Assembly (NCBI GenBank): GCA_014381465.1
Contig: JACNLP010000026.1
Coordinates: forward strand, 1-35,387
Source of the DNA: Flavobacteriales bacterium
Lineage (GTDB): Bacteria; Bacteroidota; Bacteroidia; Flavobacteriales; BACL11
Direction: 5' to 3'
Length of the DNA stretch: 35,387 nucleotides
Shown here: in pieces, positions 5,967-27,054 of the stretch
How positions within the stretch are numbered: position 1 is the first letter of the stretch
How the letters are laid out: each line of letters opens with the position of its first letter
The notes under the pieces: generated by a model
What the model saw: only the letters and a program-made list of their open reading frames with translations
Told to the model about the DNA's origin: nothing
The model's database searches: none
Program-made: the position numbers and the translations under genes

Positions 5967-5968
5967 AA

Positions 5969-6601
5969 TTAAAATTGTTTTGTTGTTGTATTTTTTCTTT
6001 CAAATAACGATTGGTCAATTCCGCAACCTTTATAGTTGGAAAGGAAACCTGTATCGTCTTCTCTTTTTATAATAAATGGTTTGTAATTTGAACTTTTTGT
6101 ATCTTGTTTCATTACATTTTGTAACATTTTCAATAACTCTAAATATGCATTTTGCATATTAAATTTATCAATCATCTCATCAAGTGCAGGGATACAAATT
6201 GTTGAAATCAATTCCTCTGCAAATTCAGGAGTTGTTTTAGGTAAAAGGGTTAAAACATTAGGCAAATGATCGGATAACTCAACACCACAATCATTATTTG
6301 CATTTCTTTGTTCTTCTTTCATCTGGACTAAGAAATCTCCTCTCTTATAATCCTCTCCAAAAAGTACATAACCAATATCCAAAAAGCAAACTGCTTGAAT
6401 GTCGAATGTTTTAATGTAATATTCCTGTCTTTGATGTAAGGTTAAAGAAGAAAAGTTAGTTATAAATCCTTTTATAATTTCTGTTTCATTAGGATAATCA
6501 ACAGATAGAACTGAAGCAGCAAGTAACGCATCATCAATTAGTCGCTCAGAAGGGTATCTGAATAAATCTGCTAGAATGGTATAGTGTTTAAAATCTTTCA
6601 T
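5969..6601 (-). CDS. narJ: Nitrate reductase assembly chaperone NarJ
   Basis: NarJ-like sequence (ILADLFRYPSERLID, DHLPNVLTLLP). The ORF track starts at 6637 inside narH; MKDFKHYTILADLFRYP at 6601 is the more plausible start, just after the narH stop. Confidence 0.88.
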   Translation of the reverse strand: MKDFKHYTILADLFRYPSERLIDDALLAASVLSVDYPNETEIIKGFITNFSSLTLHQRQEYYIKTFDIQAVCFLDIGYVLFGEDYKRGDFLVQMKEEQRNANNDCGVELSDHLPNVLTLLPKTTPEFAEELISTICIPALDEMIDKFNMQNAYLELLKMLQNVMKQDTKSSNYKPFIIKREDDTGFLSNYKGCGIDQSLFERKNTTTKQF

Positions 6602-6602
6602 T

Positions 6603-8093
6603 TTATAATCCTCTTGCTGGCATTTCTTTAAACCCAAATCCTGTGTTTCCTTTTACATCAGCAGTAGATTCTAGCATTTCCATTGCTTCCTCCCTGTGTG
6701 CTGCTGGGATTACAAACCTTTGATCAAATAATGGTAAAGAAGTTAATCTAAAAATATCATCTGCTTCTTCTCTTGTCATTGCAGTATCTGCAAGTGCTTG
6801 ATTCAATTCTTTTATATCCAAATCACCAACAGTTTTGTCTCTTCTGTGTAATCTCACTGTCATCAGTTTTCTAAATACTTCCTTTATTTTCTCACCATTT
6901 CCTGCAGAGAATAAAGATGCTAAATACTGAATTGGCATTCTTGATGCATCAATTTTTCCCCATAAAGAATCAGTAGTTGTATTATAAGTTCCGTTTTCAA
7001 CTGTTGCCATAGCAGGTAACAATGGCGGAACATAAAATAAGTTAGGAATAGTTCTGTATTCTGGATGAAGTGGTAATGCAACTCCCCACTCTTTTACAAA
7101 TTTATAAGTAGGAGATTTCTGTGCTGCATCAATTGTAGAATCTGCAATTCCATTTTTTCTGGCTGCCTTAATTACTGCTGGATCGTTTGGGTCTAAATAG
7201 ATTTCCATTTGTCTATCCACCAACTCACTTTCATCACAAGATGCAACCGCTTCAATTCTATCTGCATCATAAAGCATAACACCCAGATATCTAATTCTTC
7301 CCACACAAGAATGCATACAAGCAGGTGCTTGTCCTGATTCTAATCTTGGATAACATAAAATACATTTTTCTGATTTTCCAGTATGCCAGTTATAGTATGA
7401 TTTTTTGTAAGGGCAGGCTGTTACGCACATTCTCCAAGCTCTACATTTTTCTTGATTAATTAAAACTACACCATCTTCTCCTCTTTTATAAATAGCTCCT
7501 GAAGGGCAAGATGCTACACAAGCAGGATTTAAACAATGATTACAAATTCTAGGCAAATAAGCAAGTGTCATTTGTTCTAATTGGAACATTGCTTCCTGCT
7601 CCTGAGGACTTAAATTCTCAAAGTTTGGATCTTTTCTTGCGTAATCAGGAGTTCCACCCAAATCATCATCCCAGTTAGGACCTGATTTTATGTCAATATT
7701 TTCTCCTGTAATTAATGATTTTGCACGAGCAGTTGGCTGATCATCTCCTTCTGGAGCTTCAAACAAATGCTCATATTCATAAGTCCAAGGTTCATAATAA
7801 TCATCAATTATTGGCATATTTGGGTTATGGAAGATATTCTTTAAACCTTTCATTTTTCCTGCTCCTTTTAAAGATACCGTTTCCCCATTTTTCTCCCAAC
7901 CACCTTGGTATATTTCTTGATCTTCCCATTTTGTAGGATAACCTGTTCCAGGTTTAGTTTCTACATTATTCCACCACATGTATTCAGCACCTTTTCTGTC
8001 GGTCCAAATATTTTTACATGCGATAGAGCAAGTATGGCAACCAATACATTTATCCATGTGGAAAACCATTGTCATTTGTGATCTAATATCCAT
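6603..8093 (-). CDS. narH: Respiratory nitrate reductase beta subunit
   Basis: Fe-S motifs CIGCHTCSIACKN, CNHCLNPACVASCP, CRAWRMCVTACP (Trp-substituted, as for the 3Fe-4S cluster) and CILCYPRLESGQAPACMHSC. Confidence 0.97.
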   Translation of the reverse strand: MDIRSQMTMVFHMDKCIGCHTCSIACKNIWTDRKGAEYMWWNNVETKPGTGYPTKWEDQEIYQGGWEKNGETVSLKGAGKMKGLKNIFHNPNMPIIDDYYEPWTYEYEHLFEAPEGDDQPTARAKSLITGENIDIKSGPNWDDDLGGTPDYARKDPNFENLSPQEQEAMFQLEQMTLAYLPRICNHCLNPACVASCPSGAIYKRGEDGVVLINQEKCRAWRMCVTACPYKKSYYNWHTGKSEKCILCYPRLESGQAPACMHSCVGRIRYLGVMLYDADRIEAVASCDESELVDRQMEIYLDPNDPAVIKAARKNGIADSTIDAAQKSPTYKFVKEWGVALPLHPEYRTIPNLFYVPPLLPAMATVENGTYNTTTDSLWGKIDASRMPIQYLASLFSAGNGEKIKEVFRKLMTVRLHRRDKTVGDLDIKELNQALADTAMTREEADDIFRLTSLPLFDQRFVIPAAHREEAMEMLESTADVKGNTGFGFKEMPARGL

Positions 8094-8121
8094 AATATTT
8101 ATTTTTTCTTTTATTAATTTA

Positions 8122-11100
8122 TTAAAATACTACTTTATCCATTTTCTTAACCAGTACATGCGTATCTCTGTTCACTCCAACAGGACCCCAATAATTAAAA
8201 TGGTAAGTAAACTGCCCATATCCACCAACTAATAAGTTTGGTTTTAAATGAACTCTAGTGAAACTGTTATGTCCTCCTGCTCTTCTATTTCCTCTCACTT
8301 CTGATTTAGGAACAGTATAAGTTCTTTCTGGAGAATGATAAACAATACAAACCCCATCAGGAATTCTAGCAGATACACAGGCTCTAGTACAATAAACTCC
8401 ATTATCATTATACACCTCAACCCAATCATTATCTTTTACCCCCATTGCTTCTGCATCTCTCTCGCTCATCCAACAAGGCTCCATTCCTCTTGAAAGCGTA
8501 AGCATTCTTAAAGTATCACCATAAGTAGAGTGAATATGCCATTTACCGTGAGGAGTAAGTACATTTAACATTTTTGCTTTCCCAATTGCTACTGATTTAC
8601 GAATATCTCCATAAACTTCAGGTTTTGGTGATGGCTTATAAGTTGGCAAGTGTTCTCCAAACTTAATATACCCTTCATGGTCTAAATAAAAGTGCTGACG
8701 ACCTGTAAGTGTTCTCCAAGGAATCATGTGTTCTACATTATAAGTATAAGCAGAATACGCCCTTCCTCCATTCATAAGCCCTGACCAAATAGGAGAATTA
8801 TTGTATCTCCTTGGGCGTGCTTGCAAATCTTTATAATTAGTTCTTATATTTTTATTTCCCTCATTTAAATGTCTTAATTTCTGACCCGTTTTCTTTTCAG
8901 CTACTGCATAAGCCCTATCACTTAACTCCCCATTTGTTAATGAAGAAAGATGTAGAATTGCATTTACCGCTTCTTCATCTTCTTTTAATGACGGATAAGT
9001 TTCTCCTCCCCAAGATTGCAAATGATCTTTTTGACGGAACATATCTTCATAAAAGTCCTCACAATTATATGAGTTACCATGAGCTCCTAATCCATTTTTA
9101 ATGTTTGGTCCTAAAGAAATAAACTTGTTATAAATTTGGGTATAATCTCTTTCAACAACTGCTAATTTATGCATTGTTTTTCCAGGGATTAAATCACATT
9201 CTCCTTTACTCCAATCCTGAATCTTAGTTTGAGAAATTTCATCTTTACAATCATGTGATAAAGGGATATTTACGATATCCTTTACTGGTGTTGCAAAATG
9301 TTTTTCAGCAAGTTCGGAAGTAACTTTAGCAATGGACTGGAATATTTTCCAATCTGTTCTTGCTTCCCAAACAGGTGCAATTGCTGCAGATAATGGATGA
9401 ATAAAAGAGTGCATATCAGTTGAATTGATATCTGCTTTTTCATACCATGAAGCTGCAGGTAAAACAATGTCAGAATAAAGTGCTGAAGTATCCATACGGA
9501 AATTCAAATCAACAATTAAATCCATTTTCCCTTCTGGAGCTTCTTCAGCCCAAGCAATATCTTTTACATGATCAATTGCTACTTCTTCAGCAATATCATT
9601 ATGATGAGTACCTAGGTAATGTTTTAAGAAGAATTCATGTCCTTTTGATGATGACATTAAAGCATTTCCTCTCCAAATATACCAAACTCTAGGAAAATTA
9701 ATCTCTTTATCTGGCTCTGCAACAGAGTGAGTTAATTTATTTTCTTTTAACTGCTCAACAACATAATTTTTAATTGCTTCATCATCATTTGCTCCAGATT
9801 CTTGAGCATCTTTTACAATATCTAAATTGCTTTTATCGTATTGAGGATAGAAAGGCATCCAACCATTTCTTACGGATTTAACAACTAAATCGGCAGAGTG
9901 CTGTGATGATAATTCATTTTCAGGAACTGAATTATAATCTGCTTGATTTCCATCATATCTCCATTGAGAAGAATTAATATAATGCCAAATTGGAGCTTGC
10001 TGTAACCTTACAGCAGATTGCCAATCTTTACCAGACATAATTGCACCCCAAGAATCAACAGGAGCTAATTTTTCTTGCCCTACATAATGGTTCATACCAC
10101 CACCATTAACACCAATACATCCGGTAATCATCAATGCCATAGTTCCAGCACGATACATTAAATTTCCATGATACCAATGATTAATACCAGCCCCAACAAT
10201 AATAGAACATTTTCCATTTGTAGTTTCAGCCGTTACACCCCATTCTCTTGCTAATTGTATAAGAGTTTCTTTACCAATTCCAGTAAATATTTCTTGCCAT
10301 GCTGGAGTATAAGCTGCATCTTTATCATCATAAGAAGTTGGGTAATCTCCAGCCAAACCTCTATCTATTCCATATTGAGCCATCATAAGGTCATAAACAG
10401 TAGTAACCATTACTTCCCCATCAGAAGTTTTAACATTCTTTACAGGAACTCCTCTTAATGATTTTTTATCTAAACCATACTCAATAAATTCTACTTGCTG
10501 AACATCATCTTTATTATCAATTAATGACAATAATGGATCATAATTTTTATCATTTTCTCCATCAATATGTTGCATATTCCAGTTTCCATCTTTTGAATCC
10601 CATCTATGACCAGAAGAACCTCCAGGACATACAAATTCACCAGATTTTGCATCAATATTTAAGAACTTCCATTCTCCATTTTCAGCACCTTTATATTTAT
10701 CTACTTTATTAGCTCTTAACATTTGTCCTGGAACTAACTTATCACCATCTTTTACTAATTCAACTAAATAAGGAGAATCAGTATATTTCTTGCAGTAATC
10801 AATAAAGTAAGGTACTTGCTTATCTATATGAAATTCTTTTAAAAGAACATGAGTAAACGATTGCCAAAACGCACCATCTTGCCCTGCATGAACAGGTAAC
10901 CATTTATCAGCATATTTTGCAACCATGTTAAAGTCAGGAGCCATTACAACAGTTTTTGTACCATTGTGTCTTGCTTCTGAGAAAAAGTGAACATCAGGAG
11001 TTCTTGTCATACCCAAATTAGCTCCCATTGCTACAATAAATTTAGAGTTGTACCAATCTGCAGATTCTGCAACATCAGTTTGCTCTCCCCAAATTTCTGG

Positions 11101-11733
11101 GAAAGAATTAGGTAAATCACAGTACCAATCATAAAAAGAAAGGTTAATCCCTCCCATTAACTGTAAGAACCTTGCACCAGAAGCATAAGAAAGCATTGAC
11201 ATTGCAGGAATAGGAGAAAATCCAATAATTCTATCTGGACCATATTCTTGTACAGTATTAATATTGGAAGCTGCAATAAGCTCTAAAATCTCATCCCAAG
11301 CAACTCTTCTGAAACCACCCTTACCTCTTGCAATTTGGTATCTCCTTCTTAGTTTAGTATCATTCTGAATATTTTTCCAAGCAGAGAGTGCATCTCCTGT
11401 TTTATCTTTTTCTTTTCGAAACATATCAATTAAAGCACCTCTTACAATTGGGTATTTTACTCTAATTGGGCTATATAAATACCATGAAAAAGAGATTCCT
11501 CTTTGGCAACCTCTTGGTTCATAAGGGGGGAGAGAATCTTCTAATAAAGGATAATCTAAAGCTTGGGTTTCCCAAACTACAATACCATCTTTTACATGAA
11601 TATTCCATGAACAACCTCCAGTACAGTTTACCCCATGTGTACTTCTAATAACTTTATCATATTGCCATCTGTTTCTGTAGAAATCTTCCCATTTACGGGT
11701 TTGTGGTGAAATTAAATCTTGTATCCAACTCAT
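8122..11733 (-). CDS. narG: Respiratory nitrate reductase alpha subunit (Mo-bisPGD)
   Basis: 1203 aa; [19 protein letters not shown]...RGCQRG Fe-S motif, molybdopterin oxidoreductase fold, [20 protein letters not shown]. Confidence 0.98.
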
Positions 11734-13410: not shown

Positions 13411-13760
13411 AGCTAACCCACCCCTAACCCCTCCAAGGAGGGGAGTTATAAAGAAATCCCTGCCAATTTGGTGGGGCTTTTTTTGTATCTAAATTACACA
13501 CCCCCAACCCCTCTTATCAGAGGGGAGTTTTGTCATTGCGATAAAACAGGGTTTTAGAAGCAATTTATGTTTACACACCCCCTTAATCCCCTCCCAAGAG
13601 GGGAATTGATAAAATGCGAATAGTTCTCCTCCTTGGAGGAGGTAGAGGTGGGTTGCTTTGGACTACTGTCATTGCGAATAAAATGAAGCAATTTATGTTT
13701 ACACACCCCCAGCCCTTACTTCACATGCGTTCAGCACATGCTTATTTAGAGGGAACTAAC
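13411..13760. repeat. GC-rich intergenic repeat array A
   Basis: Repeated CCCACCCCTAACCCCTCC(AAGGAGGGG)-type modules; 13567-13674 is a near-identical inverted copy of 27294-27400. Confidence 0.9.
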
Positions 13761-14816
13761 CCACCTTTGCACACCTCCAATTAAACTCAAAGTATTTTTA
13801 ATTCCTTGCTTTTTTAACATTGAAACAATGGCTTTACTTTTTGCTCCATATTGGCAAAAAATAATAGTTGGTATTTTGAAATTAATCTCTTCTAAATTAT
13901 GCATAAAATCTCCCATAGGAATATAATGAGTAGCATTTAATTTATAGCTATCTATTTCGTACTCCTCTCTTATATCAATAAAATTAAATTCTTTTTTAGA
14001 TAAAATCCATTCCATTAGAATAGTGCTTTCAATCTCATTACTCTCTGCTAACTCACAATTATAATCATAAGTCGATAATTTGGTAATTTGTATGTGCGAT
14101 TTTTCAAAGTTAATTATTTGCTGAGCATTAGACATACAGTTGTAAGTAAGTAGTTTACCGATAAGCACATCTCCTATTTCAAGAATAATTTTCAGTACTT
14201 CAGTTGCTTGAAGTGTTCCAATTAATGATGGAAGTACGCCAATTACTCCTACCTCAGAACAAGAAGGGATATCACCATCTTTTGGAGGGTTAGGATACAA
14301 ACATCTATAAGTTGGTCCTTTTTTGTAATTAAAAACTGAAAGCTGTCCAGAAAATTTATGCAATGCACCATACACAAAAGGTTTCTCTGAAATAACACAA
14401 GCATCATTTATTAAATATCTTGCAGAAAAATTATCTGTACAATCTACCACCACATCATACTTTTTTATTATTTCTAAAGCATTATTTTTTTCTAACTGAA
14501 AAGGATAGTTTTGAAAAATAATATTCTCATTCTGGGCAGAAAGGTAAGTAATTGCAATAGTAGATTTTTGTTTTCCAATATCAGAAGTAGTATAAAGCAC
14601 TTGCCTTTGCAGATTACTTAAATCCACAATATCGGCATCAATTACTCCAATTTCACCAATACCAGCAGCAGATAAGTATTGTAAAACTGGACAACCCAAG
14701 CCTCCAGCACCAACCACTAATACTTTAGCATTCTTTAGCTTTTGTTGCCCTTTCTCCCCTACTTCTTTTAGTCGGAAATGTCTATCGTATCTTTGTTTTT
14801 CTTGCTGTGAAAACAT
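13746..14816 (-). CDS. ThiF/MoeB/HesA-family adenylyltransferase with C-terminal rhodanese domain
   Basis: VLVVGAGGLGCPVLQYLSAAGIGEIGVIDADIVDLSNLQRQVLY, DCTDNFSARYLINDAC, C-terminal rhodanese FIDIREEYEID...IIFCQYGAKSK. Confidence 0.92.
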   Translation of the reverse strand: MFSQQEKQRYDRHFRLKEVGEKGQQKLKNAKVLVVGAGGLGCPVLQYLSAAGIGEIGVIDADIVDLSNLQRQVLYTTSDIGKQKSTIAITYLSAQNENIIFQNYPFQLEKNNALEIIKKYDVVVDCTDNFSARYLINDACVISEKPFVYGALHKFSGQLSVFNYKKGPTYRCLYPNPPKDGDIPSCSEVGVIGVLPSLIGTLQATEVLKIILEIGDVLIGKLLTYNCMSNAQQIINFEKSHIQITKLSTYDYNCELAESNEIESTILMEWILSKKEFNFIDIREEYEIDSYKLNATHYIPMGDFMHNLEEINFKIPTIIFCQYGAKSKAIVSMLKKQGIKNTLSLIGGVQRWVSSL

Positions 14817-14858: not shown

Positions 14859-16184
14859 CTACTGCTTCAACTGTTCGAGTTTTGGTTTAATTATTTTAAA
14901 ACCATTTAAAAGTGCTTCTGATAATCTATCCACATTCTGTTGGGTAATAGTAGTAGCAAACATACAGGCACAAGTGTTTATCATTATTATATTTTCTTCC
15001 AAAAATAGAAAATCAAGTAGTTCGTTTATAATTAATTTTATCTCTTTCCCTTGATAGGCTTCACGATATGTGGTAGGTGCTATTTTATTAAAATGCACTC
15101 TGAACATAGAACCCGCTCCTGTAACACAAGCAGAAATACCTGCTAACTTAATAGCTTCTTCTACTTGTTTAATAGCAATTTTAGTTAAGTTATTCAAATC
15201 CCTTACCCCTTGCTCATCAAACATTTTCATTGCAGTATAACCAGCAGTTATGGAAATAGGATTAGCTGAGAAAGTCCCGGAATGAGGGTGCCTTAAAAAA
15301 GTCTCTCTCGGATCAAGCACTTGCATAATTTCTGATTTTCCAGCAAGTGCTCCAATAGGAAAACCGCCACCAATAATTTTTCCTAAAGCTGTTAAATCAG
15401 GTTCTACATTATAGCTTTCTTGTGCCCCAGAATAATTTATTCGGTAAGTAACCACCTCATCAAAAGCCAAAACCGCATTATTTTTTCTTGTCCACTTATA
15501 TAGTGCTTCAACATATTCTTTGCTTGCAGGAATAAGCCCTACTCTGTGGGGAACAAGATCAATGAGTACAATTGCAATATCATCTGCATTCTTATTTAAT
15601 AAGTTAAGCGTTCTTTCAATATCATTGTAAGGAAAAATAACCATGTCATTTAGCACTCCTTCAGGAGTTCCTTCTACAACAGGAACCGGATTTGGATTTT
15701 CAATACTTCCCCAATTGCTAGGGGTGGCAGTTTGGCTTATTTCAGCATAATCGTAAGTTCCATGATATGCTCCTTCCGCTTTTGCAATTTTATGTTTTCC
15801 TGTATAAACCCTGGCTGCTTTTATCATGGTCATTACAGCTTCAGTACCTGAGTTCATAAATCGGATTCTCTCAAACCCTTTGGTACGATTATTTAGAAGT
15901 TCGGCATAATTCACCTCTATTTCTGATCCCATAGTAAAAGCTGAACCTTTTTGTAATTGCTTACTAACAGCTTCTACAATTTTAGGATGCGAATGCCCAT
16001 GAATTAAAGATGCCATATTGTTAGCAAAATCTAATCGTTTACAACCATCAACATCTTTTATATAACTCCCATTAGCAGTTGAAACATAAAAAGGATGTGG
16101 ATCACGAAATATAGTGTTTCGGCTAACTCCTCCTGTTAAAACTTGAATGGCACGATTATATATTTTTTTGCTTTCCTCTCCCAT
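14859..16184 (-). CDS. Class III PLP aminotransferase (GSA-aminomutase/beta-transaminase-like)
   Basis: FMNSGTEAVMTMIKAARVYTGKHKIAKAEGAYHG, LAFDEVVTYR, TALGKIIGGGFPIGALAGK, HSGTFSANP motifs. Confidence 0.9.
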   Translation of the reverse strand: MGEESKKIYNRAIQVLTGGVSRNTIFRDPHPFYVSTANGSYIKDVDGCKRLDFANNMASLIHGHSHPKIVEAVSKQLQKGSAFTMGSEIEVNYAELLNNRTKGFERIRFMNSGTEAVMTMIKAARVYTGKHKIAKAEGAYHGTYDYAEISQTATPSNWGSIENPNPVPVVEGTPEGVLNDMVIFPYNDIERTLNLLNKNADDIAIVLIDLVPHRVGLIPASKEYVEALYKWTRKNNAVLAFDEVVTYRINYSGAQESYNVEPDLTALGKIIGGGFPIGALAGKSEIMQVLDPRETFLRHPHSGTFSANPISITAGYTAMKMFDEQGVRDLNNLTKIAIKQVEEAIKLAGISACVTGAGSMFRVHFNKIAPTTYREAYQGKEIKLIINELLDFLFLEENIIMINTCACMFATTITQQNVDRLSEALLNGFKIIKPKLEQLKQ

Positions 16185-16188
16185 TTTA

Positions 16189-16839
16189 TTATTGACTTAA
16201 AGTAGCCTGAGTATGTCTCTGTACAAAATCAAAATCTACATTTGGAGCTAACTCTTTAATAAATAAACCATCTTTTTTTACCTCTATAATTGCTAGATTT
16301 GTGTAAATTCTTTCTACAACATTTTTTCCTGTTAAAGGGAATGTGCAATTATTTATAATTTTAGGAAGTCCTTTTTTTGTTGTGTGTTGCGTGATTACAA
16401 AAATCCTTTTTACTCCAGCAACCAAATCCATAGCCCCCCCAACAGCAGGTATAGCATCTTCTGCTCCAGTACTCCAATTTGCCAAATCACCTTCTCTGGA
16501 TACTTGCATTGCTCCAAGTACACAAATATCAATATGCCCGCCTCTAATCATAGCAAAGCTATCAGCATGATGAAAATAACTAGCTCCAGAGATTGCAGAA
16601 ATACATTTTTTTCCTGCATTTACAAGTTCTCTATCTTCCATTTCTTTGGAAGGAGCCTTCCCCATACCAAGTAAACCATTTTCAGTTTGGTAAATTACCT
16701 CTCTATCCTTAGGGACAAAATCAGCTACCAATTCAGGAATACCAATACCTAAATTTACATAAGAACCATCAGGAATATCTAAAGCTACTTTTTGAGCCAT
16801 TTCTTCTCTGCTCCAACCTATTTGTTTTGTGTCTAACAT
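16189..16839 (-). CDS. 3-oxoacid CoA-transferase, subunit B
   Basis: YVNLGIGIPELVADFV, YQTENGLLGMG (catalytic ENG motif), GGAMDLVAGVKR. Confidence 0.93.
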   Translation of the reverse strand: MLDTKQIGWSREEMAQKVALDIPDGSYVNLGIGIPELVADFVPKDREVIYQTENGLLGMGKAPSKEMEDRELVNAGKKCISAISGASYFHHADSFAMIRGGHIDICVLGAMQVSREGDLANWSTGAEDAIPAVGGAMDLVAGVKRIFVITQHTTKKGLPKIINNCTFPLTGKNVVERIYTNLAIIEVKKDGLFIKELAPNVDFDFVQRHTQATLSQ

Positions 16840-17546
16840 GGATATTTTATCTGCTTTGCTACCAAATCCGATTCGTGAGATGGATTAGTAATTTCTACAA
16901 CTTTTTTTACAAAAATTCCTGGGGTAATTACTTCTTCCGGATTTAATTCTCCAAGCTCAACAATTTGTTTTGCCTGAACAATAGCCACCTTTGATGCCAT
17001 ACACATAATTGGTCCGAAATTTCGTGCCGTAGCATGATATACTAGGTTTCCGTATCTATCAGCTTTATTACATTTTACTAAAGAATAATCTGCTTTTATA
17101 GCATATTCTAAAACATTTTCAGTACCATTAATTATTCGACTTTCTTTCCCTTCTGCTAGTGGTGTGTTTACTGATGATGGCGTAAAAAAAGCTGGGATTC
17201 CAGAACCACCAGCCCTAATTCTTTCAGCTAAAGTGCCTTGAGGAACAAGCTCTAGCTCAATTTCTCCATTCCTATACAATTCAGGGAACACCTTAGAATT
17301 TGCAGTTCTTGGAAAGGAGCAAATCATTTTTTTTACTTGCTTGTTTTCAATTAGTGCAGCTAAGCCAATATGTCCACTTCCAGTATTATTACTCACAACA
17401 GTTAAGTTTTTTGCTCCATTATCAATCAGTGCATGAATTAGTTCAATGGGACTACCCGCTTCTCCAAATCCACCAATCATAATTGTTGTTCCATTATGTA
17501 TCTCTTTTACTGCCTGAGAAACTGATTCTACAATTTTATTTATCAT
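16833..17546 (-). CDS. 3-oxoacid CoA-transferase, subunit A
   Basis: TIMIGGFGEAGSPIELIHALI, NNTGSGHIGLAALI, GNLVYHATARNFGPIMCMAS; overlaps subunit B by a few nt. Confidence 0.93.
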   Translation of the reverse strand: MINKIVESVSQAVKEIHNGTTIMIGGFGEAGSPIELIHALIDNGAKNLTVVSNNTGSGHIGLAALIENKQVKKMICSFPRTANSKVFPELYRNGEIELELVPQGTLAERIRAGGSGIPAFFTPSSVNTPLAEGKESRIINGTENVLEYAIKADYSLVKCNKADRYGNLVYHATARNFGPIMCMASKVAIVQAKQIVELGELNPEEVITPGIFVKKVVEITNPSHESDLVAKQIKYPC

Positions 17547-17549
17547 TAG

Positions 17550-19124
17550 TTAGCTTTCAAAATTATTTTCCAAATTTTCTTCAATCTGTGATAATTCCTT
17601 TTCGTAAAAATACTCTCCTCCTTCAAATGGTTTTAAATTAATGATGGTATTTTCTTTTTCATCATATTCTGCTAAGTAAACTTCATCTAACCATTGCATA
17701 TTTCTAGCTTCATTAAATTTAAGTACAAATGCTTTTTTTCCATTTATAGTTGTGGTTCCAAGTAAAGAAGTTTTCCCTGCTGAGGAAGTCATGGTAATAT
17801 ATCGAGATGGCCTACCAATTGAAGGTAAACTTCTGTAAATTTTGCTAAATATCTTATTCATATCGGCAAGTGGAGCTGTAAAATAACCATGTTCTCCTGT
17901 TGGGCGAGCACAATAAATGGAATGGAAACTCATGCCAAGCATCATTAAAATATGTGCTAAATCAATCCAATTTTGTGCCGATTTATCCACATCTACTTTT
18001 CCGTTTTTACCCATAAATAAACTGATGTGGTTCATCATTGGACTTTGGCTTTTTACAGTTATACCGAACAATCTTAACCTTCTTATAGCAGCTATTGTGT
18101 GAATATTTAACAATTCTTTTGGAGTAGAAAAATGCCCCATCCATAATACCTGAACTCCGCTATCAATCAGTTTTTTGAAAAGTTGTAGAGAACCATCATA
18201 TTTAGAATCCAAAATAATATTTGGCTCATAAGTAAGGGCACGGGAAGCAATTCTAATAGTTCTAATATGTGATAATTCAGGGTTTTCAATTATGGGCAAA
18301 AGATATTCGTTTAATCTTTTTGTTGGCATATAGCCAGCATCTCCTCCAGTAATTAGAATATCGGTAACTTCTTTATGTTTTTTTAAGTACTTATGAACTT
18401 GTGCAACATCATCTTGTACAAACATATCATCATCTCCTCTTACTTGTGCATGCCTAAAACAATAAGTACAATAGGCAAAGCAACTTTGAGTAGTTTTATC
18501 AAACAACAAGAACACATGTGGATACTTGTGTTGCCCACCATCTACTGCTTCAACATTTCCATCTTCAGAATAAAAAGTTGGTCTGTTTAATAGTTGTTTC
18601 CCATCATGAGGATTGGTTTTATCTCTGTAAGAAACCACCATTTTAGTTCTTTCTTTTGCATCCTCAATGTTTTTGTATTTTTCTACAATTTCTTCCTCAA
18701 TCATTCCTGGCTGAGGAAAAACCAGTTGAAAAACTTGATCCTGCTCATAGTTTTCCCAATCGATAGTGCTAAGTATATGTTTTGTTGCTAAAAAAGCATA
18801 GACTTCCAAAAAAAGTTCTCGTTCCCTCATTTGTGAAAGATGTATGCCGTTATCTTCCAAAATTGTACAAACTGCTTTAAACCCTTCTAAGCCAAAATAT
18901 TTATTCTTAGCATTAGCAAATATTGATTTGGATTCTCTTTTTAGAAGGGAATGTTGAGAAAAACAATTATGTAATCGACTTAATAATGCAAGAGGAAGTA
19001 AATTTTCTTGCTCAATAACTTCTTTTGCTTTATCTGATAATGCATGAAAGTTCATTAATTTTAAAACATCTGAATTATCAATTTTATTGATTTTTTCTGT
19101 TTTTACTTTAGTATTTGTTGGCAT
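17550..19124 (-). CDS. KamA-family radical SAM protein (lysine/glutamate 2,3-aminomutase-like)
   Basis: CFAYCTYCFRHAQVRG radical SAM motif, DILITGGDAGYMPTKRL, IRIASRALTYEPNI; Lys-2,3-aminomutase-like layout. Confidence 0.88.
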   Translation of the reverse strand: MPTNTKVKTEKINKIDNSDVLKLMNFHALSDKAKEVIEQENLLPLALLSRLHNCFSQHSLLKRESKSIFANAKNKYFGLEGFKAVCTILEDNGIHLSQMRERELFLEVYAFLATKHILSTIDWENYEQDQVFQLVFPQPGMIEEEIVEKYKNIEDAKERTKMVVSYRDKTNPHDGKQLLNRPTFYSEDGNVEAVDGGQHKYPHVFLLFDKTTQSCFAYCTYCFRHAQVRGDDDMFVQDDVAQVHKYLKKHKEVTDILITGGDAGYMPTKRLNEYLLPIIENPELSHIRTIRIASRALTYEPNIILDSKYDGSLQLFKKLIDSGVQVLWMGHFSTPKELLNIHTIAAIRRLRLFGITVKSQSPMMNHISLFMGKNGKVDVDKSAQNWIDLAHILMMLGMSFHSIYCARPTGEHGYFTAPLADMNKIFSKIYRSLPSIGRPSRYITMTSSAGKTSLLGTTTINGKKAFVLKFNEARNMQWLDEVYLAEYDEKENTIINLKPFEGGEYFYEKELSQIEENLENNFES

Positions 19125-19330: not shown

Positions 19331-22300
19331 GTGAAAAAATGTATGAAAATATCTTTTGTATTAGCACTTATTTGCTTGCTTCCAAAACTTATGTTTTCCC
19401 AAGCACCTGGCTGCCCAAATGTAAATGCAGGTGCCGACACAGTTGTTGACTGCAATAGCGTTTCCTGTGTGCAACTTACAGCTAATTATTTGGATGTAGG
19501 TCTAACGACATCTTATACGGTTTCTTCAACTCCTTATGCGCCACCCTATCCTTTTACTGGTGGCACTCAATTATTTATTGGCATTGATGATATATGGAGT
19601 AGTGTAATAAGTCTGCCTTTTAATTTCTGCTTTTTTGGAAATACCTATAATCAGATTGTGATTGGTACTAATGGTGTAATTTCTTTTGACCTATCTAATG
19701 CAGGTGGATTTTGTGTTTTTGGGTTTTCTAATAATATCCCAAATCCTAGTATCCCTTATCCAAACTCTATTAATGGGGCTTATCACGATATTGATCCATC
19801 AGTAGGAGGAGACATCAATTATGCTGTTTTAGGTTCTTACCCATGCAGAACATTTGTTGTAAACTATAATAATGTGCCTCATTATTCATGTAATTCAATC
19901 ACTACTACACAGCAAATTGTACTTTATGAAACTACAAATGTGATAGAAGTTTACATTAATGACAAACCCACTTGTAATGGTTGGAACTCAGGGAATGCTG
20001 TTATAGGCATTCAGAATATAGCTGGAACGATTGGCTACACTCCTCCTGGAAGAAATACTGGCTCTTGGACCACTTCTAATGAAGCATGGCGATTTACACC
20101 AAGTGGACCTTCTATTAGTACTATAAATTGGTTTGAAAGTGGGGTGAGTAGTCCTATTAGTACATTTGATACGGTTACTGTTTGTCCAATAAACACTACT
20201 AATTATATTGCGGAGGTTACTTACATTAGGTGTGATCAAACCATTGTAATTGAAACAGATACTGTTGAGGTTGATATTAGCTGTTGTCCTCCACAAGTTA
20301 TAGATGTAGTTACAACCCCATCATGTGGTGCAGGGAATGATGGTTCAATACAACTTTCCCTTGCAGCAGCAAATATTCTTAATATTAGTTGGACTGGCCC
20401 AAATGGATTTACAAGTAATACAGTAAATATTTCAAATCTTATTTCTGGGAATTATGTGGCGGATATTACTTATTCAAATAATTGCCCTCCATTTACAGAT
20501 ACTATTGCATTAATTGACCCTTTGGTGATGTCTGCCAATTACACTTTTAATAATATTAGTTGTTTTGGTGATAATGATGGAAATATTGATTTGACAGTGA
20601 TTGGAGGCACGCTTCCTTATACATTTCTATGGAGCGGACCAAATTCCTTTTCGGCTTCCTCAGAAGATATAAATCTACTTTATGAAGGGATTTATTCAGT
20701 ACTTGTTTCTGATTTTAATGGTTGCTCTTATTTCTATAATATCCCGATTCAAGAGCCAGATAAAATTACTTTAAGTGCGTCCATTACTGATTTGAGTTGT
20801 GTATCGGTCAATGATGGTGTTATTGATGTTATGGTTAGCGGTGGCACACCTTCTTTTAATTACAGTTGGAGCAATGGAGCAAGTACTTCATTGCTTAATA
20901 ATTTGTCGGTTGGAGAATATATTTTAACACTTACTGATAATAAGAATTGTTTACAAACCGATACTTTTGAAATCAAAGCAGCTACTTTTCTTACAAGTGC
21001 ATCTGTTTTTGATATCAAATGTAATGGCGATTCTGATGCTTTTATCGACATAGAAATTATTGGAGGAAATTACCCCTATACTTACAATTGGAATAATGGT
21101 ACAAGTACACAAGATATAATAAATGTTGGAGCAGGGGTGTATCAAGTAAGTGTAACGGATGTTACTAATTGTACAATTGATACTACTATTATCATTTCCC
21201 AACCCACACCTTTAAATGCAATTGCAACTACAACTAATGTAAGTTGTTATGGAGGAAATAACGGAAGCTCTACTTTGCAGATTACAGGTGGAATACCGCC
21301 ATATATTTCAGATTGGAATGGTTTAGATACTTTGAATTTTTTTGCAGGCACTCATCCTTTTCAAATTACAGATTCTAATGGATGTGTTTTTAATGCAAGT
21401 GTGAATATATCACAACCCGATTCATTAAGCATTAGTTTTAACACTTCAAATGTGCAATGTGTGGGAGATGCTAATGGGGCTATTGATATTTCTGTTCTCT
21501 CAGGAAGCGGAACACCTAATTACACCTTTTCTTGGACAGGACCAAATTCCTTTATTTCTAATTCAGAAGATATTTCAAATATAAATGCTGGTCTTTACAC
21601 CATAAACATTGCAGATGCTAATAATTGTGTTTTTGAATATCATTTAGTGGTGGAACAACCCACCCCGCTTTCTCAAATTTTGGATATAAAAACACCAAAT
21701 TTTAATGGCTACTCTATTGCCTGCAATAGTGATTATAGCGCTTGGATTTCAGTGGATGTTTTTGGTGGCTATATTCCTTATACTTATCAGTGGAGTAATG
21801 GCAGTAATTCCGATAGTATATTTGGCTTAAATGCTGGTAATTATGCTTTAACTATTACTGATGCACTCGGTTGTACTTTCGATACCTCTGTTACTCTTTT
21901 AGAGCCGCCTTCTACTATTTCTGCTTCAATCAATGCTACTACTGATTATAATGGTTATACAGTGCGGTGTTTCGACAGTAATGATGGGGCTATTCAGGTT
22001 GTTGGAGCAGGAGGAGTTCCATCATATTCTTTTTTATGGAATAATGGAAGCACCTCAGATAGCATTACTAATTTGGATGCTTCCTACTATGAGGTAGAGG
22101 TTACCGATAGTAATGGTTGTATTTGGGTTGGAGGGATTACACTTAATAAACCCTCTGCACTTGAAATTACCCTTTCATCTATCACAGATACTTGCGAAAG
22201 GGCAGTTGGTTTTGCTGGCACTAATGTAATTGGTGGAGTAACACCTTATACTTATTTGTGGAGTAATGGGCAAAGCTCAATAATTGCAAATAACCTTTTG

Positions 22301-22936
22301 GAAGGAGTTTATTACATTACTTCTACTGATGCTAATTTATGTGAGATTTCAGATTCTGTTGAGGTTGATAATATAAAAAGTCCGATAGCAGATTTTAATA
22401 CAATGCCAAAACATAGAAGGTATTATGAGCAATTGGACAAGCCATTTATTTTTATTGACATTTCAAATACCTATTGGCAAAATATAATAAATTGGAATTG
22501 GGATTTTGATTATAACGGTATATCTCCTACTTATAATGGGTTTGATTCTATTGTGAAACATTTCTATAATGAAACTGGTACATATAGAATATTTCTAAGC
22601 ATTGAAACAGAATATCATTGTATAGATACCATTTCAAAAACTATATTGATTGATGATTTTGCATTATTTATTCCTGATGCTTTTACTCCGGGAATTGATG
22701 AACTAAATAATGAGTTTAAACCATATGGCTATGGGATAAAAGAATATAAAATGATGATTTTTAGTCGGTGGGGAGAGCTTCTTTTTACTTCAAAGAATTT
22801 GGATGTTGGCTGGAATGGTATAAAAGAAGGAAAAGAAAAAATATCTCCACTTGGAGTATATGCTTACTATATAGAAATTGAAAATATATTTGGAGAGATT
22901 TTTAAATATGAAGGAACATTAAATTTAATTAGATAA
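19331..22936 (+). CDS. Secreted SprB-repeat protein with gliding-motility/T9SS type B-like C-terminal domain
   Basis: Signal peptide; about nine GGxxPYxYxWSNG...VTDxNGC repeats; PKD-like segment; C-terminus FIPDAFTPGIDELNNEFKP...MMIFSRWGELLFTSKN.GWNG. Confidence 0.9.
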   Translation: MKKCMKISFVLALICLLPKLMFSQAPGCPNVNAGADTVVDCNSVSCVQLTANYLDVGLTTSYTVSSTPYAPPYPFTGGTQLFIGIDDIWSSVISLPFNFCFFGNTYNQIVIGTNGVISFDLSNAGGFCVFGFSNNIPNPSIPYPNSINGAYHDIDPSVGGDINYAVLGSYPCRTFVVNYNNVPHYSCNSITTTQQIVLYETTNVIEVYINDKPTCNGWNSGNAVIGIQNIAGTIGYTPPGRNTGSWTTSNEAWRFTPSGPSISTINWFESGVSSPISTFDTVTVCPINTTNYIAEVTYIRCDQTIVIETDTVEVDISCCPPQVIDVVTTPSCGAGNDGSIQLSLAAANILNISWTGPNGFTSNTVNISNLISGNYVADITYSNNCPPFTDTIALIDPLVMSANYTFNNISCFGDNDGNIDLTVIGGTLPYTFLWSGPNSFSASSEDINLLYEGIYSVLVSDFNGCSYFYNIPIQEPDKITLSASITDLSCVSVNDGVIDVMVSGGTPSFNYSWSNGASTSLLNNLSVGEYILTLTDNKNCLQTDTFEIKAATFLTSASVFDIKCNGDSDAFIDIEIIGGNYPYTYNWNNGTSTQDIINVGAGVYQVSVTDVTNCTIDTTIIISQPTPLNAIATTTNVSCYGGNNGSSTLQITGGIPPYISDWNGLDTLNFFAGTHPFQITDSNGCVFNASVNISQPDSLSISFNTSNVQCVGDANGAIDISVLSGSGTPNYTFSWTGPNSFISNSEDISNINAGLYTINIADANNCVFEYHLVVEQPTPLSQILDIKTPNFNGYSIACNSDYSAWISVDVFGGYIPYTYQWSNGSNSDSIFGLNAGNYALTITDALGCTFDTSVTLLEPPSTISASINATTDYNGYTVRCFDSNDGAIQVVGAGGVPSYSFLWNNGSTSDSITNLDASYYEVEVTDSNGCIWVGGITLNKPSALEITLSSITDTCERAVGFAGTNVIGGVTPYTYLWSNGQSSIIANNLLEGVYYITSTDANLCEISDSVEVDNIKSPIADFNTMPKHRRYYEQLDKPFIFIDISNTYWQNIINWNWDFDYNGISPTYNGFDSIVKHFYNETGTYRIFLSIETEYHCIDTISKTILIDDFALFIPDAFTPGIDELNNEFKPYGYGIKEYKMMIFSRWGELLFTSKNLDVGWNGIKEGKEKISPLGVYAYYIEIENIFGEIFKYEGTLNLIR

Positions 22937-22938
22937 TT

Positions 22939-25900
22939 ATGAAAAAGTACACACTCATTTTGTTTTTGTTTTTTACTCAAACCCTTTTTGGGCAAGAACT
23001 TTTTACAATTAATAACAACAATAAAATAATTGCAACAAAAAATCCTAAAAATACAATTGGTTTAATTCTTAATGACATCATTCATCAGAAAATATTAAAT
23101 AATGCTGAAAAACAACACACTATTAATCTTCCGTTTTTTGGGCAAGCTTTACAATTTAGTTTGGAAAAACACAATGCTGTTTTTAGTGAATTACAAATAA
23201 CTTCTAAAACTAAAAATGGAAATGTACTTTTGGATATTAAACCAAACTTATTGACCTATAAAATGTTTCATAATGGAGAGTCTGTTGGTATTATTAGCTT
23301 TGTGAATGGGGAAATCCTTGCCACTTTTAAGATGAATGCTAGACAATACGAGATTAGTAAATTCAAAGGAAAGTATATTTTATTTGAAGCCACTAATAGT
23401 ATTAATGCTTCTAATTTTGAGTGTGGTTCTGAGCAAGTTCAATCTCAGCAATTAAATAGTTACCCTCAAAATTCTTTTATCCCAAAATGTATTGAGCTTG
23501 CCATTGAAATTGACGAATACACTAGGTTAACTTTTGCTAGTGATCAAGAAGCAACCAATTGGGCATTAGCAATTATTGCAGGGGTTAGCCAAATATATGA
23601 AACTGATATTAATGTAGCTGTGCAAGTTGTTGATGTTACTATTTGGAACACTACTGATCCTTATGATGCAATTACAAATGATGCAAGCAACATGCTAAGT
23701 ACATTGGCAAACTATTGGAGTACAAATAATGGCGGTATTGCTCGTGATTTGGTGCATTTAATGACAAAAAGAAGTAATACTGGAACAGGAGGTATTGCGT
23801 ATTTAGGAGTGCTTTGTAGCATGGGCTCAGGTTATGCTTTTTCTAGTGTACTGAATAATGACACTACTTTTACTTTTCCAAATCCTTCATACAGCTGGAA
23901 TCTGAATGTAATCTCTCATGAAATGGGACATAATATCGGTTCTCCTCACACACATTCTTGCAATTGGGCAGCAGACCCAACTTATGGTTTTGTTGGTGGT
24001 GGTATAGATGATTGTGGTGTAGTTTCAGGGTCAGCAAGTGCTTGTACTCCCCCAGCACCAGCTCCTCCTGGAGGAATAGGTACAATTATGAGTTATTGCC
24101 ATGTGGGAGGAAGCGGAGTAATTTTGGAATTTCATGATATTGTTATCACACAAGCACTTAATCCGGGTATAAATAATGCTTCTTGCATTACAACTTGCGA
24201 TTATTTTGGATGTACTGATTCATTAGCATTTAATTATGATACTACTGCCACTATTGATGATAGTAGTTGTATCCCTGTTGTAATGGGATGTATTGATACT
24301 GCTGCTGCAAATTATAATTCGGCTGCCAATACGGATGATGGAAGTTGTACTTATTGTTTTGCTTTAACTTTTAGCGTTTCTGATATTAGCTGTAATGGTT
24401 ATAATGATGGTTTTATTGATATGTTGGTGCAATCAGGAACAGGAACTTCATCTTATATTTATAATTGGACAGGCCCTAGTGGGTTTTCATCTACTAGTGA
24501 AGATATAAATAGTTTGTCGGCTGGCACTTATATAATTGCTGTTACCGATACTTTGGGCTGTACCGAAACAGTAAGCAGAGTAATAAATAATCCTTTACCA
24601 ATAAACATTGATAGTTTGGTGATTACTAATGTAAGTTGTTTTGGTTTGCCAGATGGAACAGCAACTGTTTACATAAGTGGAGGCACGCCTAATTATGTTT
24701 ATAATTGGGGTGGAGCTACTCCTCTTTCATTAGTAGCTGGCAACTATTCTGTTGCAATAACGGATGCGAATAATTGTCCGCAAGCCACCTCAAATTTTTC
24801 AATTACTGAGCCCAATTTGTTAGTTGGCACTTACTCAACTGTTGATATAAGTTGTTTTGGTTTTGGAAATGGAAGCATTGATGCAACTCTTATGGGTGGG
24901 GTATTGCCTTATACTTATAGTTGGACAGGACCAAATACCTTTTCAAGCACTACACAAGATATAACTAGCTTGCAAGCGGGAGCTTATTCTCTTGCCATTA
25001 CGGATGCAAATGGATGTGTAGAAACAATTTCCCCTACTATTACAGAGCCATCAGCAGTAATGGTAAGCTCCACTATTTCGGATGCTAGTTGTAATGGGGG
25101 TTCTGATGGCTATATTGATATTAGTCCCACAGGAGGAACGCTACCATATTCATATAATTGGAGTAATGGAGCAATTACTCAAGATTTAATGAATATTGGT
25201 GCAGGGCAGTATTCTGTTGATGTTTTGGATGATAATGGTTGCATTGTTCCTACTCTTACTTTTACAATTAACCAGCCGCTTCCTTCCTCTCTATCTGTTC
25301 AGATTACTTCTGTGGATTGTAATGGAGATAACAATGGTGTAATTGACATTACTTATGTGCCAGATGTTGGCGTTCCTTTTAGCTTTAGCTGGACTGGTCC
25401 AAACGGATTTACCTCCAATATAGATGATATAACTTCTCTTTTTGCTGGAACTTATACCCTCAATATTACCGAGAGTAATTGTGTTATTACAAACACTTAT
25501 TTTGTGTCAGAGCCAGCTCCAATCACTACTTTAGAAACGGTACAGCATGCAAGCTGTTACGATTCTACTGATGCAAGTGTATTATTAACTATTTCTGGTG
25601 GAGTGCCTACTTATACAACAAATTGGGGAGGATTTAATCCGCAAGCATTAAATGCAGGTACTTATACTTACACTATAACAGATGATAATAATTGTGTTTT
25701 TTCTGATACAGTTTTTATAAATCAGCCAAGTATTGTTAATGTCAATTATAATATTTCTAATGTAAGTTGCTTTAATGGGATTAATGGGAGCGCTTCTCTT
25801 ATTATTAGTGGAGGAACTGCTCCTTATACTTCTACTTGGCAAAATGCAAACCCTCTTCAACTCAATGCTGGATTTCACTCTTACACTATAGTTGATGATA

Positions 25901-27054
25901 ATGCTTGTATTTATTCCGATTCAGTTTTTATTAGTCAGCCCTCACAAATGATAATAATTGAAAACACTGTTGATGTTCTTTGTAATGGTGATAATTCTGG
26001 TTCTGCTGTTTTGAATATAAGCGGTGGTGTTTCTCCTTATCAAACAAATTGGTATGGGTATAATAATTTAACACTGCAAAGTGGAAATTACCTTTATGAT
26101 GTTACAGATATAAATAATTGCAATTCAACTGGTGTTGTATTTATTAGCGAACCGAATCCGATAGTAGTATCTAATAGCATTACTCCATCTTCATGCCTAA
26201 ATTCTACTGACGGACAAATAAACATAAATATAAGTGGAGGGGTTGCCCCTTATCAACAAAATTGGTTTGGTATAACTCCTTTGAGTTTATCGGCAGGAAA
26301 TTACACTTACACTATTATTGATGCCAACGGATGTATAGATAGTAATCAAGTTGTTGTATCTTCTATTAGTAATTTATCGGTTAATAATATCACAAATCAT
26401 GTGAGTTGTTTTGGTTTTTGTGATGCTAGCATCAACCTTTCTATTACAAATGGAATTCCTCCTTATTCGGTAAATTGGTTTTCATTTTCTCCTGATTCAT
26501 TGTGTGAGGGTAACTATCCTTATAGGGTTACAGATGATTTGGGTTGTACTTTTGATGATACAATTACAGTTTTGATGCCTCAGCCATTAGTAACAAGTTT
26601 AACTCTTAACGGAACCCTTCTTAGTGCAAGCGTAAATGGAGGAACGCCACCTTATTTTTATTATTGGTGGAATGCAAATGGGAATTTAGGGAACACATCA
26701 TCAGTAACTATCAATCAAGGTGGAAATTACTTTTGTGTTGTTAGCGATATTAATAATTGTAATTCTGATACCGTTTCCTTTTTGTTTACTGCAATGGATG
26801 CAGTAGATTTTTTATCAGATAATATCAAGCTATATCCTAATCCGTTTTCAGACTTTATTACTATTGAAATTCCAATAGAGTATAAGGGTTTAACATTATC
26901 CTTACATAATGTTTTAGGTGAAATTCTATTACAGCAAAAGTATTACAACACACAGGAAATACAAGTTTTTAGAAAAGACTTATCCTCTGGTACTTATATC
27001 CTAAGTTTAAAAATGAAAGACTTTACAATTAGGAAAAAATTGGTTATTGAATAA
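22939..27054 (+). CDS. Secreted M12B-like zinc metalloprotease with SprB repeats and type A-like T9SS C-terminal domain
   Basis: Signal peptide; HEMGHNIGSPHTHSCNW zinc site, GIGTIMSYC Met-turn; about 11 SprB-type repeats; C-terminal LYPNPFSDFITIEI...GTYILSLKMKDFTIRKKLVIE. Confidence 0.92.
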   Translation: MKKYTLILFLFFTQTLFGQELFTINNNNKIIATKNPKNTIGLILNDIIHQKILNNAEKQHTINLPFFGQALQFSLEKHNAVFSELQITSKTKNGNVLLDIKPNLLTYKMFHNGESVGIISFVNGEILATFKMNARQYEISKFKGKYILFEATNSINASNFECGSEQVQSQQLNSYPQNSFIPKCIELAIEIDEYTRLTFASDQEATNWALAIIAGVSQIYETDINVAVQVVDVTIWNTTDPYDAITNDASNMLSTLANYWSTNNGGIARDLVHLMTKRSNTGTGGIAYLGVLCSMGSGYAFSSVLNNDTTFTFPNPSYSWNLNVISHEMGHNIGSPHTHSCNWAADPTYGFVGGGIDDCGVVSGSASACTPPAPAPPGGIGTIMSYCHVGGSGVILEFHDIVITQALNPGINNASCITTCDYFGCTDSLAFNYDTTATIDDSSCIPVVMGCIDTAAANYNSAANTDDGSCTYCFALTFSVSDISCNGYNDGFIDMLVQSGTGTSSYIYNWTGPSGFSSTSEDINSLSAGTYIIAVTDTLGCTETVSRVINNPLPINIDSLVITNVSCFGLPDGTATVYISGGTPNYVYNWGGATPLSLVAGNYSVAITDANNCPQATSNFSITEPNLLVGTYSTVDISCFGFGNGSIDATLMGGVLPYTYSWTGPNTFSSTTQDITSLQAGAYSLAITDANGCVETISPTITEPSAVMVSSTISDASCNGGSDGYIDISPTGGTLPYSYNWSNGAITQDLMNIGAGQYSVDVLDDNGCIVPTLTFTINQPLPSSLSVQITSVDCNGDNNGVIDITYVPDVGVPFSFSWTGPNGFTSNIDDITSLFAGTYTLNITESNCVITNTYFVSEPAPITTLETVQHASCYDSTDASVLLTISGGVPTYTTNWGGFNPQALNAGTYTYTITDDNNCVFSDTVFINQPSIVNVNYNISNVSCFNGINGSASLIISGGTAPYTSTWQNANPLQLNAGFHSYTIVDDNACIYSDSVFISQPSQMIIIENTVDVLCNGDNSGSAVLNISGGVSPYQTNWYGYNNLTLQSGNYLYDVTDINNCNSTGVVFISEPNPIVVSNSITPSSCLNSTDGQININISGGVAPYQQNWFGITPLSLSAGNYTYTIIDANGCIDSNQVVVSSISNLSVNNITNHVSCFGFCDASINLSITNGIPPYSVNWFSFSPDSLCEGNYPYRVTDDLGCTFDDTITVLMPQPLVTSLTLNGTLLSASVNGGTPPYFYYWWNANGNLGNTSSVTINQGGNYFCVVSDINNCNSDTVSFLFTAMDAVDFLSDNIKLYPNPFSDFITIEIPIEYKGLTLSLHNVLGEILLQQKYYNTQEIQVFRKDLSSGTYILSLKMKDFTIRKKLVIE
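24208..24351 (+). repeat. Two tandem GCxDxxAxNYxxxAxxDDxSC motifs inside the metalloprotease CDS
   Basis: GCTDSLAFNYDTTATIDDSSC followed by GCIDTAAANYNSAANTDDGSC. Confidence 0.85.

Follow-up and report, generated by a model that had tools for sequence, protein, structure and literature searches.

In a 35,387-nucleotide contig of a Flavobacteriales bacterium (JACNLP010000026.1, assembly GCA_014381465.1), analysed here over its whole length and called the window, four genes encode a KamA-like radical SAM aminomutase, the two subunits of a 3-oxoacid CoA-transferase and a class III aminotransferase. This operon is probably a catabolic branch for L-2-aminoadipate, the six-carbon dicarboxylic amino acid derived from lysine. 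We favour this substrate because three separate lines, the pocket of the aminomutase, the type of thiolase encoded in related operons and the gene clusters around some of them, converge on it. With slightly less assurance, we also think it likely that the genes represent an undescribed lysine/2-aminoadipate pathway that crosses phyla, passing through 3-aminoadipate and 3-oxoadipate, with a new aminomutase activity and an oxygen-free junction to the lower β-ketoadipate pathway. A first-pass annotation of this DNA had proposed the same type of route (aminomutase, β-transaminase, 3-oxoacid CoA-transferase and thiolysis), and this is supported because the operon is deeply conserved and a fifth gene, for a 3-oxoadipyl-CoA thiolase, recurs in it. 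Its statement that the substrate could not be told, with lysine, glutamate or another amino acid all possible, was too cautious, since the lysine-binding aspartates are gone, an arginine is invariant, and the thiolase and the gene clusters point to 2-aminoadipate.

Conservation of the operon

Relatives were sought in named genomes with a five-sequence alignment of the KamA-like protein, and 69 long-form relatives at 53-78% identity were recovered. Their hosts include Flavobacteriales, Bacteroidales, Ignavibacteria, Neomarinimicrobiota, Edwardsbacteria and Deltaproteobacteria/Desulfuromonadales, as well as Shewanella, Photobacterium, Pseudoalteromonas, alphaproteobacteria, Verrucomicrobiota and Sumerlaeota. 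The operon is spread over about eight phyla, and many of the carriers are marine or sediment bacteria.

Neighbouring genes were counted wherever the sequence extended 5.2 kb or more past the KamA-like gene, as it did at 54 loci (L035 and L079 being two labels of a single locus). Co-directional genes for CoA-transferase subunit A, subunit B and the aminotransferase are each found downstream at 53 of these loci, and a thiolase gene at 45. The commonest order, found at 42 loci, is KamA, subunit A, subunit B, aminotransferase, thiolase; seven loci, including the window, have only the two subunits and the aminotransferase, without the thiolase. The recurrence of the four-gene order in relatives had been proposed as a test of the first-pass annotation, and the order is indeed kept. 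Such an arrangement is far beyond chance, and because it is conserved so widely a single pathway is very likely. The regulators vary by group, with LysR in proteobacteria and a cupin-helix-turn-helix protein in many Bacteroidota and Neomarinimicrobiota. Comparison of the KamA-like protein with plasmids gave distant matches only, all below 35% among the matches listed.

The aminomutase and its active site

By its cluster cysteines, its carboxylate-binding arginine, its pyridoxal phosphate (PLP) lysine and a fold like that of lysine 2,3-aminomutase (LAM), the protein belongs to the KamA superfamily, and the CFAYCTYCFRHAQVRG motif is present in it. The long-form relatives match the KamA-family models weakly. 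Against the curated cut-offs of NCBIfam, the window protein scores 77.9 bits with the general KamA family (TIGR00238, cut-off 199.2), 69.6 with lysine 2,3-aminomutase (TIGR03820, 525.4), 52.7 with the arginine model (600), 51.3 with glutamate 2,3-aminomutase (TIGR04368, 650) and 50 with EpmB (TIGR03821, 369.3), and an identity as EpmB was rejected on this score. When 43 long-form members were scanned, the best match to the glutamate model had an E-value of 2e-19. The long-form proteins group in a single clade of the tree (support 99), on a long branch well apart from LAM.

In LAM, Asp293 and Asp330 hold the ε-amine of the lysine side chain, Arg134 holds the α-carboxylate and Lys337 carries the PLP; this numbering and these roles are those of the 2a5h structure. 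We aligned 66 sequences of the long form and 40 of the short form, which has about 450 aa, with 30 of the LAM type. The cluster cysteines C215, C219 and C222 (CxxxCxxC), Arg224 (LAM Arg134) and Lys451 (LAM Lys337) are kept in all three groups. The column of LAM Asp293 holds Asp in 30 of 30 LAM-type sequences, Arg407 in all 66 long-form sequences and Arg in all 40 short-form sequences, and the column of Asp330, again Asp in 30 of 30, holds Ser/Thr444 in 66 of 66 long-form and Ser in 39 of 40 short-form sequences. Arg438 and Arg441 are extra basic residues common to the long and short forms. When the long form was first aligned by profile with 9 LAMs, a gap fell beside Arg407; later alignments, with more sequences and by way of the short-form sister family, are gapless and favour Arg407 opposite Asp293. 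Because both aspartates are lost and Arg407 is invariant, the pocket points to a substrate with an acidic side chain. The AlphaFold (AF2) model has a predicted local distance difference test (pLDDT) score of 85, with a poor cluster loop (217-230), and its best Foldseek match in the PDB is lysine 2,3-aminomutase 2a5h (E 1.5e-13).

The short-form sister family is common in Bacteroidota and Halomonas and probably occurs on some plasmids (L003-L030, L034, L117-L127). At the loci compared, its genes share no conserved neighbourhood; one member (L046) adjoins a non-ribosomal peptide synthetase, and Halomonas members adjoin a TAXI-TRAP transporter. The substrate of this family is probably acidic. One short-form gene (L015, contig C90:157003-164583 of genome G216) lies about 5 kb from a gene for piperidine-6-carboxylate (P6C) dehydrogenase, which may reflect the same link to a substrate.

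CoA-transferase and thiolase

Subunit A of the CoA-transferase passes TIGR02429 (pcaI_scoA, 348.7 bits, cut-off 128.5) and subunit B passes TIGR02428 (pcaJ_scoB, 299.5 bits, cut-off 243.55), subfamilies which cannot tell 3-oxoadipate enzymes from acetoacetate (SCOT) enzymes. Among the plasmid relatives at 52-57% are CoA-transferase genes that precede pcaF or lie close to catC. All 12 of the operon thiolases tested (L035, L038, L056, L063, L070, L077, L080, L088, L096, L104, L107 and L114) pass the equivalog TIGR02430 for pcaF, at 641-710 bits against a cut-off of 597, and the nearest solved structures include the β-ketoadipyl-CoA thiolase 6pca. A thiolase of the PcaF type suggests that the CoA-transferase yields 3-oxoadipyl-CoA, the thioester of a six-carbon diacid.

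The plasmid CoA-transferase pair closest to that of the window (65%/64%) is found on Tistrella mobilis plasmid pTM2 (L190, 11427-19219), near genes for a DUF1338 (HglS-type) protein, a P6C-dehydrogenase-like protein and an aminotransferase; there is no KamA at that locus.

Links to lysine degradation

P6C dehydrogenase and saccharopine dehydrogenase make 2-aminoadipate from lysine, and genes for both are found beside the operon at three loci. In a member of the Desulfuromonadales (L110) one strand carries, in order, P6C dehydrogenase, KamA-like protein, CoA-transferase subunits A and B, aminotransferase, thiolase and saccharopine dehydrogenase; the KamA-like match spans two frames there, so that this copy is broken or misassembled. 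In alphaproteobacteria, one locus (L090) has the four genes KamA, subunit A, subunit B and aminotransferase followed by P6C dehydrogenase and saccharopine dehydrogenase, and another (L097) has KamA, aminotransferase, P6C dehydrogenase and saccharopine dehydrogenase, without the CoA-transferase. The linked P6C dehydrogenases pass the cut-off of NF050084 (804-818 bits, cut-off 730). Of the three saccharopine dehydrogenase genes two were scanned, and they have PF16653/PF03435. The window genome (1.98 Mb in 85 contigs, 97% complete) has one KamA-family gene at the thresholds used, and a P6C dehydrogenase of 829 bits on another contig (C47:66646-68067).

Twelve carriers, including two Marinifilum, have a P6C dehydrogenase (a fragment in one case) and no glutaryl-CoA dehydrogenase (GCDH)-like gene at the threshold used, so that they could profit from a different outlet for 2-aminoadipate. 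The GCDH query sequence was checked against the PDB. GCDH-like genes were found in 23 of 48 carriers and in 30 of 32 non-carriers with a P6C dehydrogenase, groups which are unmatched by phylogeny. A strict exclusivity between the operon and GCDH was thus not found.

Proposed route

In the route that we propose, the KamA-like enzyme would act as a 2-aminoadipate 2,3-aminomutase, converting L-2-aminoadipate to 3-aminoadipate. Arg224 would hold the α-carboxylate and Lys451 would carry the PLP, while Arg407, perhaps with Arg438 and Arg441, would hold the distal carboxylate at the place of Asp293 and Asp330 in LAM. The class III aminotransferase would then convert 3-aminoadipate to 3-oxoadipate, the two-subunit CoA-transferase would move CoA from succinyl-CoA onto 3-oxoadipate, and a PcaF-type thiolase would cleave 3-oxoadipyl-CoA to succinyl-CoA and acetyl-CoA. 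This last enzyme would come from the in-operon gene in most relatives and from paaJ/pcaF of the phenylacetate operon in the window genome. The predicted net reaction is 2-aminoadipate + 2-oxoglutarate + CoA giving acetyl-CoA + succinate + glutamate, with no oxygen, no loss of CO2 and no net redox change.

Should this be correct, the operon would add to lysine breakdown both an enzyme activity and a branch that are new; in this branch the six carbons of 2-aminoadipate are kept as acetyl-CoA and succinate, and lysine is joined to the β-ketoadipate pathway without oxygen. Genes of many marine and sediment bacteria, which automatic annotation is apt to name lysine 2,3-aminomutase, glutamate-1-semialdehyde aminomutase and 3-oxoacid CoA-transferase, would have to be re-annotated. 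It would also offer a defined and testable case of an aminomutase whose specificity has moved from basic to acidic side chains.

Evidence against the proposal and alternative readings

Several observations weigh against the 2-aminoadipate route. The main weak point is that NF050084 found no P6C dehydrogenase in any of the six searched carriers that belong to Shewanella, Photobacterium and Pseudoalteromonas. Among 48 distinct carrier genomes only 31 have this enzyme over the cut-off or as a fragment (three fragments), and it is common across Bacteroidota regardless of the operon (154 of 297). Because it is so widespread in that phylum its co-occurrence is permissive only, and as proof it was dropped. 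The window genome contains a gene with 51% identity to glutaryl-CoA dehydrogenase, so that the standard 2-aminoadipate route may exist there. The residue roles come from alignment, and the Foldseek match has template-modelling (TM) scores of 0.50/0.63 with a cluster loop of low confidence. Finally, the window's own operon has no thiolase gene; a PcaF/PaaJ thiolase of 607 bits, over the cut-off of 597, is encoded on another contig (C38) in a paa-like, phenylacetate-type cluster and could serve the route.

Glutamate is one alternative substrate, which would pass by way of 3-aminoglutarate, 3-oxoglutarate and 3-oxoglutaryl-CoA to acetyl-CoA and malonyl-CoA. Arg407 would suit any distal carboxylate, some carriers are without P6C dehydrogenase, and glutamate 2,3-aminomutase, which is related to KamA and takes an acidic amino acid, likewise has neither aspartate. 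However, neither the window protein nor the 43 long-form members come near the model of that enzyme, the operon thiolase is of the 3-oxoadipyl-CoA type by its curated cut-off, and the operon clusters with genes leading from lysine to aminoadipate; we consider glutamate improbable.

We give as little credence to another amino acid, neutral or aromatic, or to a substrate that depends on the clade, with the gammaproteobacterial operons differing from the rest. The Shewanella, Photobacterium and Pseudoalteromonas carriers without the P6C dehydrogenase equivalog would fit such a difference, but Arg407, Arg438, Arg441 and the thiolase type are unchanged in those genomes.

It is very unlikely that the protein is a lysine 2,3-aminomutase whose product, β-lysine, is degraded by transamination, CoA transfer and thiolysis, as proposed for the kamA-yod operon of Bacillus. 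The radical SAM fold is shared, and the enzyme classes match that cluster, of which KamA and YodT are listed in PMC6522883. Against this, both aspartates for the side-chain amine are replaced in every long-form sequence, the long form has its separate branch in the tree and the PcaF-type thiolase acts on a diacid; with the TIGR03820 cut-off also far out of reach, identity as LAM was rejected. The clostridial lysine fermentation genes kamDE, kdd, kce and kal accompany a lysine 2,3-aminomutase, and this protein does not appear to be one; the genome searches covered KamA, HemL, P6C dehydrogenase, GCDH and thiolase.

Scarcely credible is a set of unrelated neighbours, in which the aminotransferase would be a HemL that serves haem synthesis and the remaining genes would be housekeeping ones: nothing in the window genome passes the curated HemL cut-off, but the gene order is conserved over many phyla, the operon aminotransferases score below that cut-off and most searched members of the window genome's own family do without any HemL.

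The first-pass annotation had named a true HemL as one finding that would count against it, and this did not hold. The window aminotransferase scores 326.8 bits with hemL TIGR00713 (cut-off 527.3), the operon enzymes of the carriers score about 300-367 bits and never reach that value, and a true HemL is encoded in addition in 16 of 48 carrier genomes; the HemL reading was ruled out on these grounds. The closest solved relatives are the class III transaminase 6k8h and ForI 6ssd, ahead of HemL, and the β-transaminases 4ao9 and 2yku are also among the structure matches. Cytochromes are encoded in the window genome (G000) despite the lack of a HemL over the cut-off. Two metagenome-assembled genomes of the same family have HemL-like aminotransferases that score like the operon enzyme (G302 C3:25217-26359 and G304 C8:192332-193462), with no KamA-like match; perhaps the operon is incompletely present there, or the enzymes have another use.

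Gene layout and neighbouring genes in the window

As claimed in the first-pass annotation, the four open reading frames (ORFs) are co-directional and tightly packed. From the KamA-like gene to the aminotransferase gene they are separated by a 3 bp gap, a 7-bp overlap and a 4 bp gap. A Pfam and NCBIfam scan gave PF04055/KamA (both under their curated cut-offs), PF01144 twice and PF00202.

Table 1. Genes of the putative 2-aminoadipate operon, with positions in the window.
Gene product	Length (aa)	Position	Strand	Family and predicted function
KamA-like radical SAM/PLP aminomutase, long form	524	17550..19124	-	predicted 2-aminoadipate 2,3-aminomutase
CoA-transferase subunit A	237	16833..17546	-	TIGR02429; 3-oxoacid (predicted 3-oxoadipate) CoA-transferase
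CoA-transferase subunit B	216	16189..16839	-	TIGR02428; 3-oxoacid (predicted 3-oxoadipate) CoA-transferase
Class III aminotransferase	441	14859..16184	-	PF00202; predicted 3-aminoadipate:2-oxoglutarate transaminase

A ThiF/MoeB-rhodanese gene (13746-14816) lies 42 bp past the aminotransferase gene; because it is close to narGHJI and not generally conserved in relatives, it was excluded from the operon. The narGHJI nitrate reductase genes (5244-11733) adjoin a cytochrome c gene; the ThiF/MoeB-rhodanese gene and a MoaA-like ORF (64-1059) are nearby, and this region is a nitrate respiration cluster. On the other side, two very large and mutually related ORFs (1201 and 1371 aa, 19331-27054) on the + strand are divergent from the operon and have repeats resembling secreted gliding/adhesin proteins. 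Matches to PF02621 (menaquinone biosynthesis) and PF01048 (nucleoside phosphorylase) at 27423-28801 probably belong to the futalosine pathway.

Comparison with known systems

No paper on 3-aminoadipate as a metabolite or on an aminoadipate aminomutase was found in the literature searched, which covered few subscription journals, and an earlier description is possible. The known fates of 2-aminoadipate lead to glutaryl-CoA by way of 2-oxoadipate or, via the oxygen-dependent HglS, to 2-hydroxyglutarate (PMC5653290, PMC7286885). These routes and the one proposed here have the same lysine-derived starting compound; the known ones remove the amino group at C2, whereas the operon route would first shift it to C3, with transamination and thiolysis following, and would need neither decarboxylation nor oxygen.

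LAM (KamA/AblA, 2a5h) and the KamA-like protein share the radical SAM cysteines and the equivalents of Arg134 and Lys337, and LAM is the best fold match. The KamA-like protein differs from it in having Arg and Ser/Thr for Asp293 and Asp330, in its longer N- and C-terminal parts and in a score far under the cut-off. With glutamate 2,3-aminomutase it has in common the KamA kinship and would share the class of acidic substrates, while the match to TIGR04368 is poor and the gene company differs.

By gene content the nearest analogue is kamA-yodPQRST of Bacillus, with KamA, a class III aminotransferase and a CoA-transferase pair; that cluster has acetyltransferase and deacetylase genes as well, and is not known to have a PcaF thiolase. 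The Bacillus KamA is a true lysine aminomutase, and YodT is annotated as BioA-like whereas the operon aminotransferase is HemL-like. β-Transaminases resembling HemL have been described, and one of them, the acyl-CoA β-transaminase Kat, is likewise a class III, HemL-like enzyme of a lysine pathway; Kat uses 3-aminobutyryl-CoA in lysine fermentation, whereas the operon enzyme is predicted to act before CoA transfer (PMC3149608). The final steps would be those of the β-ketoadipate pathway (PcaIJ, PcaF), a CoA-transferase pair and then a 3-oxoadipyl-CoA thiolase over the pcaF cut-off, except that the 3-oxoadipate of that pathway comes from aromatic ring cleavage and the predicted source in the operon route is an amino acid.

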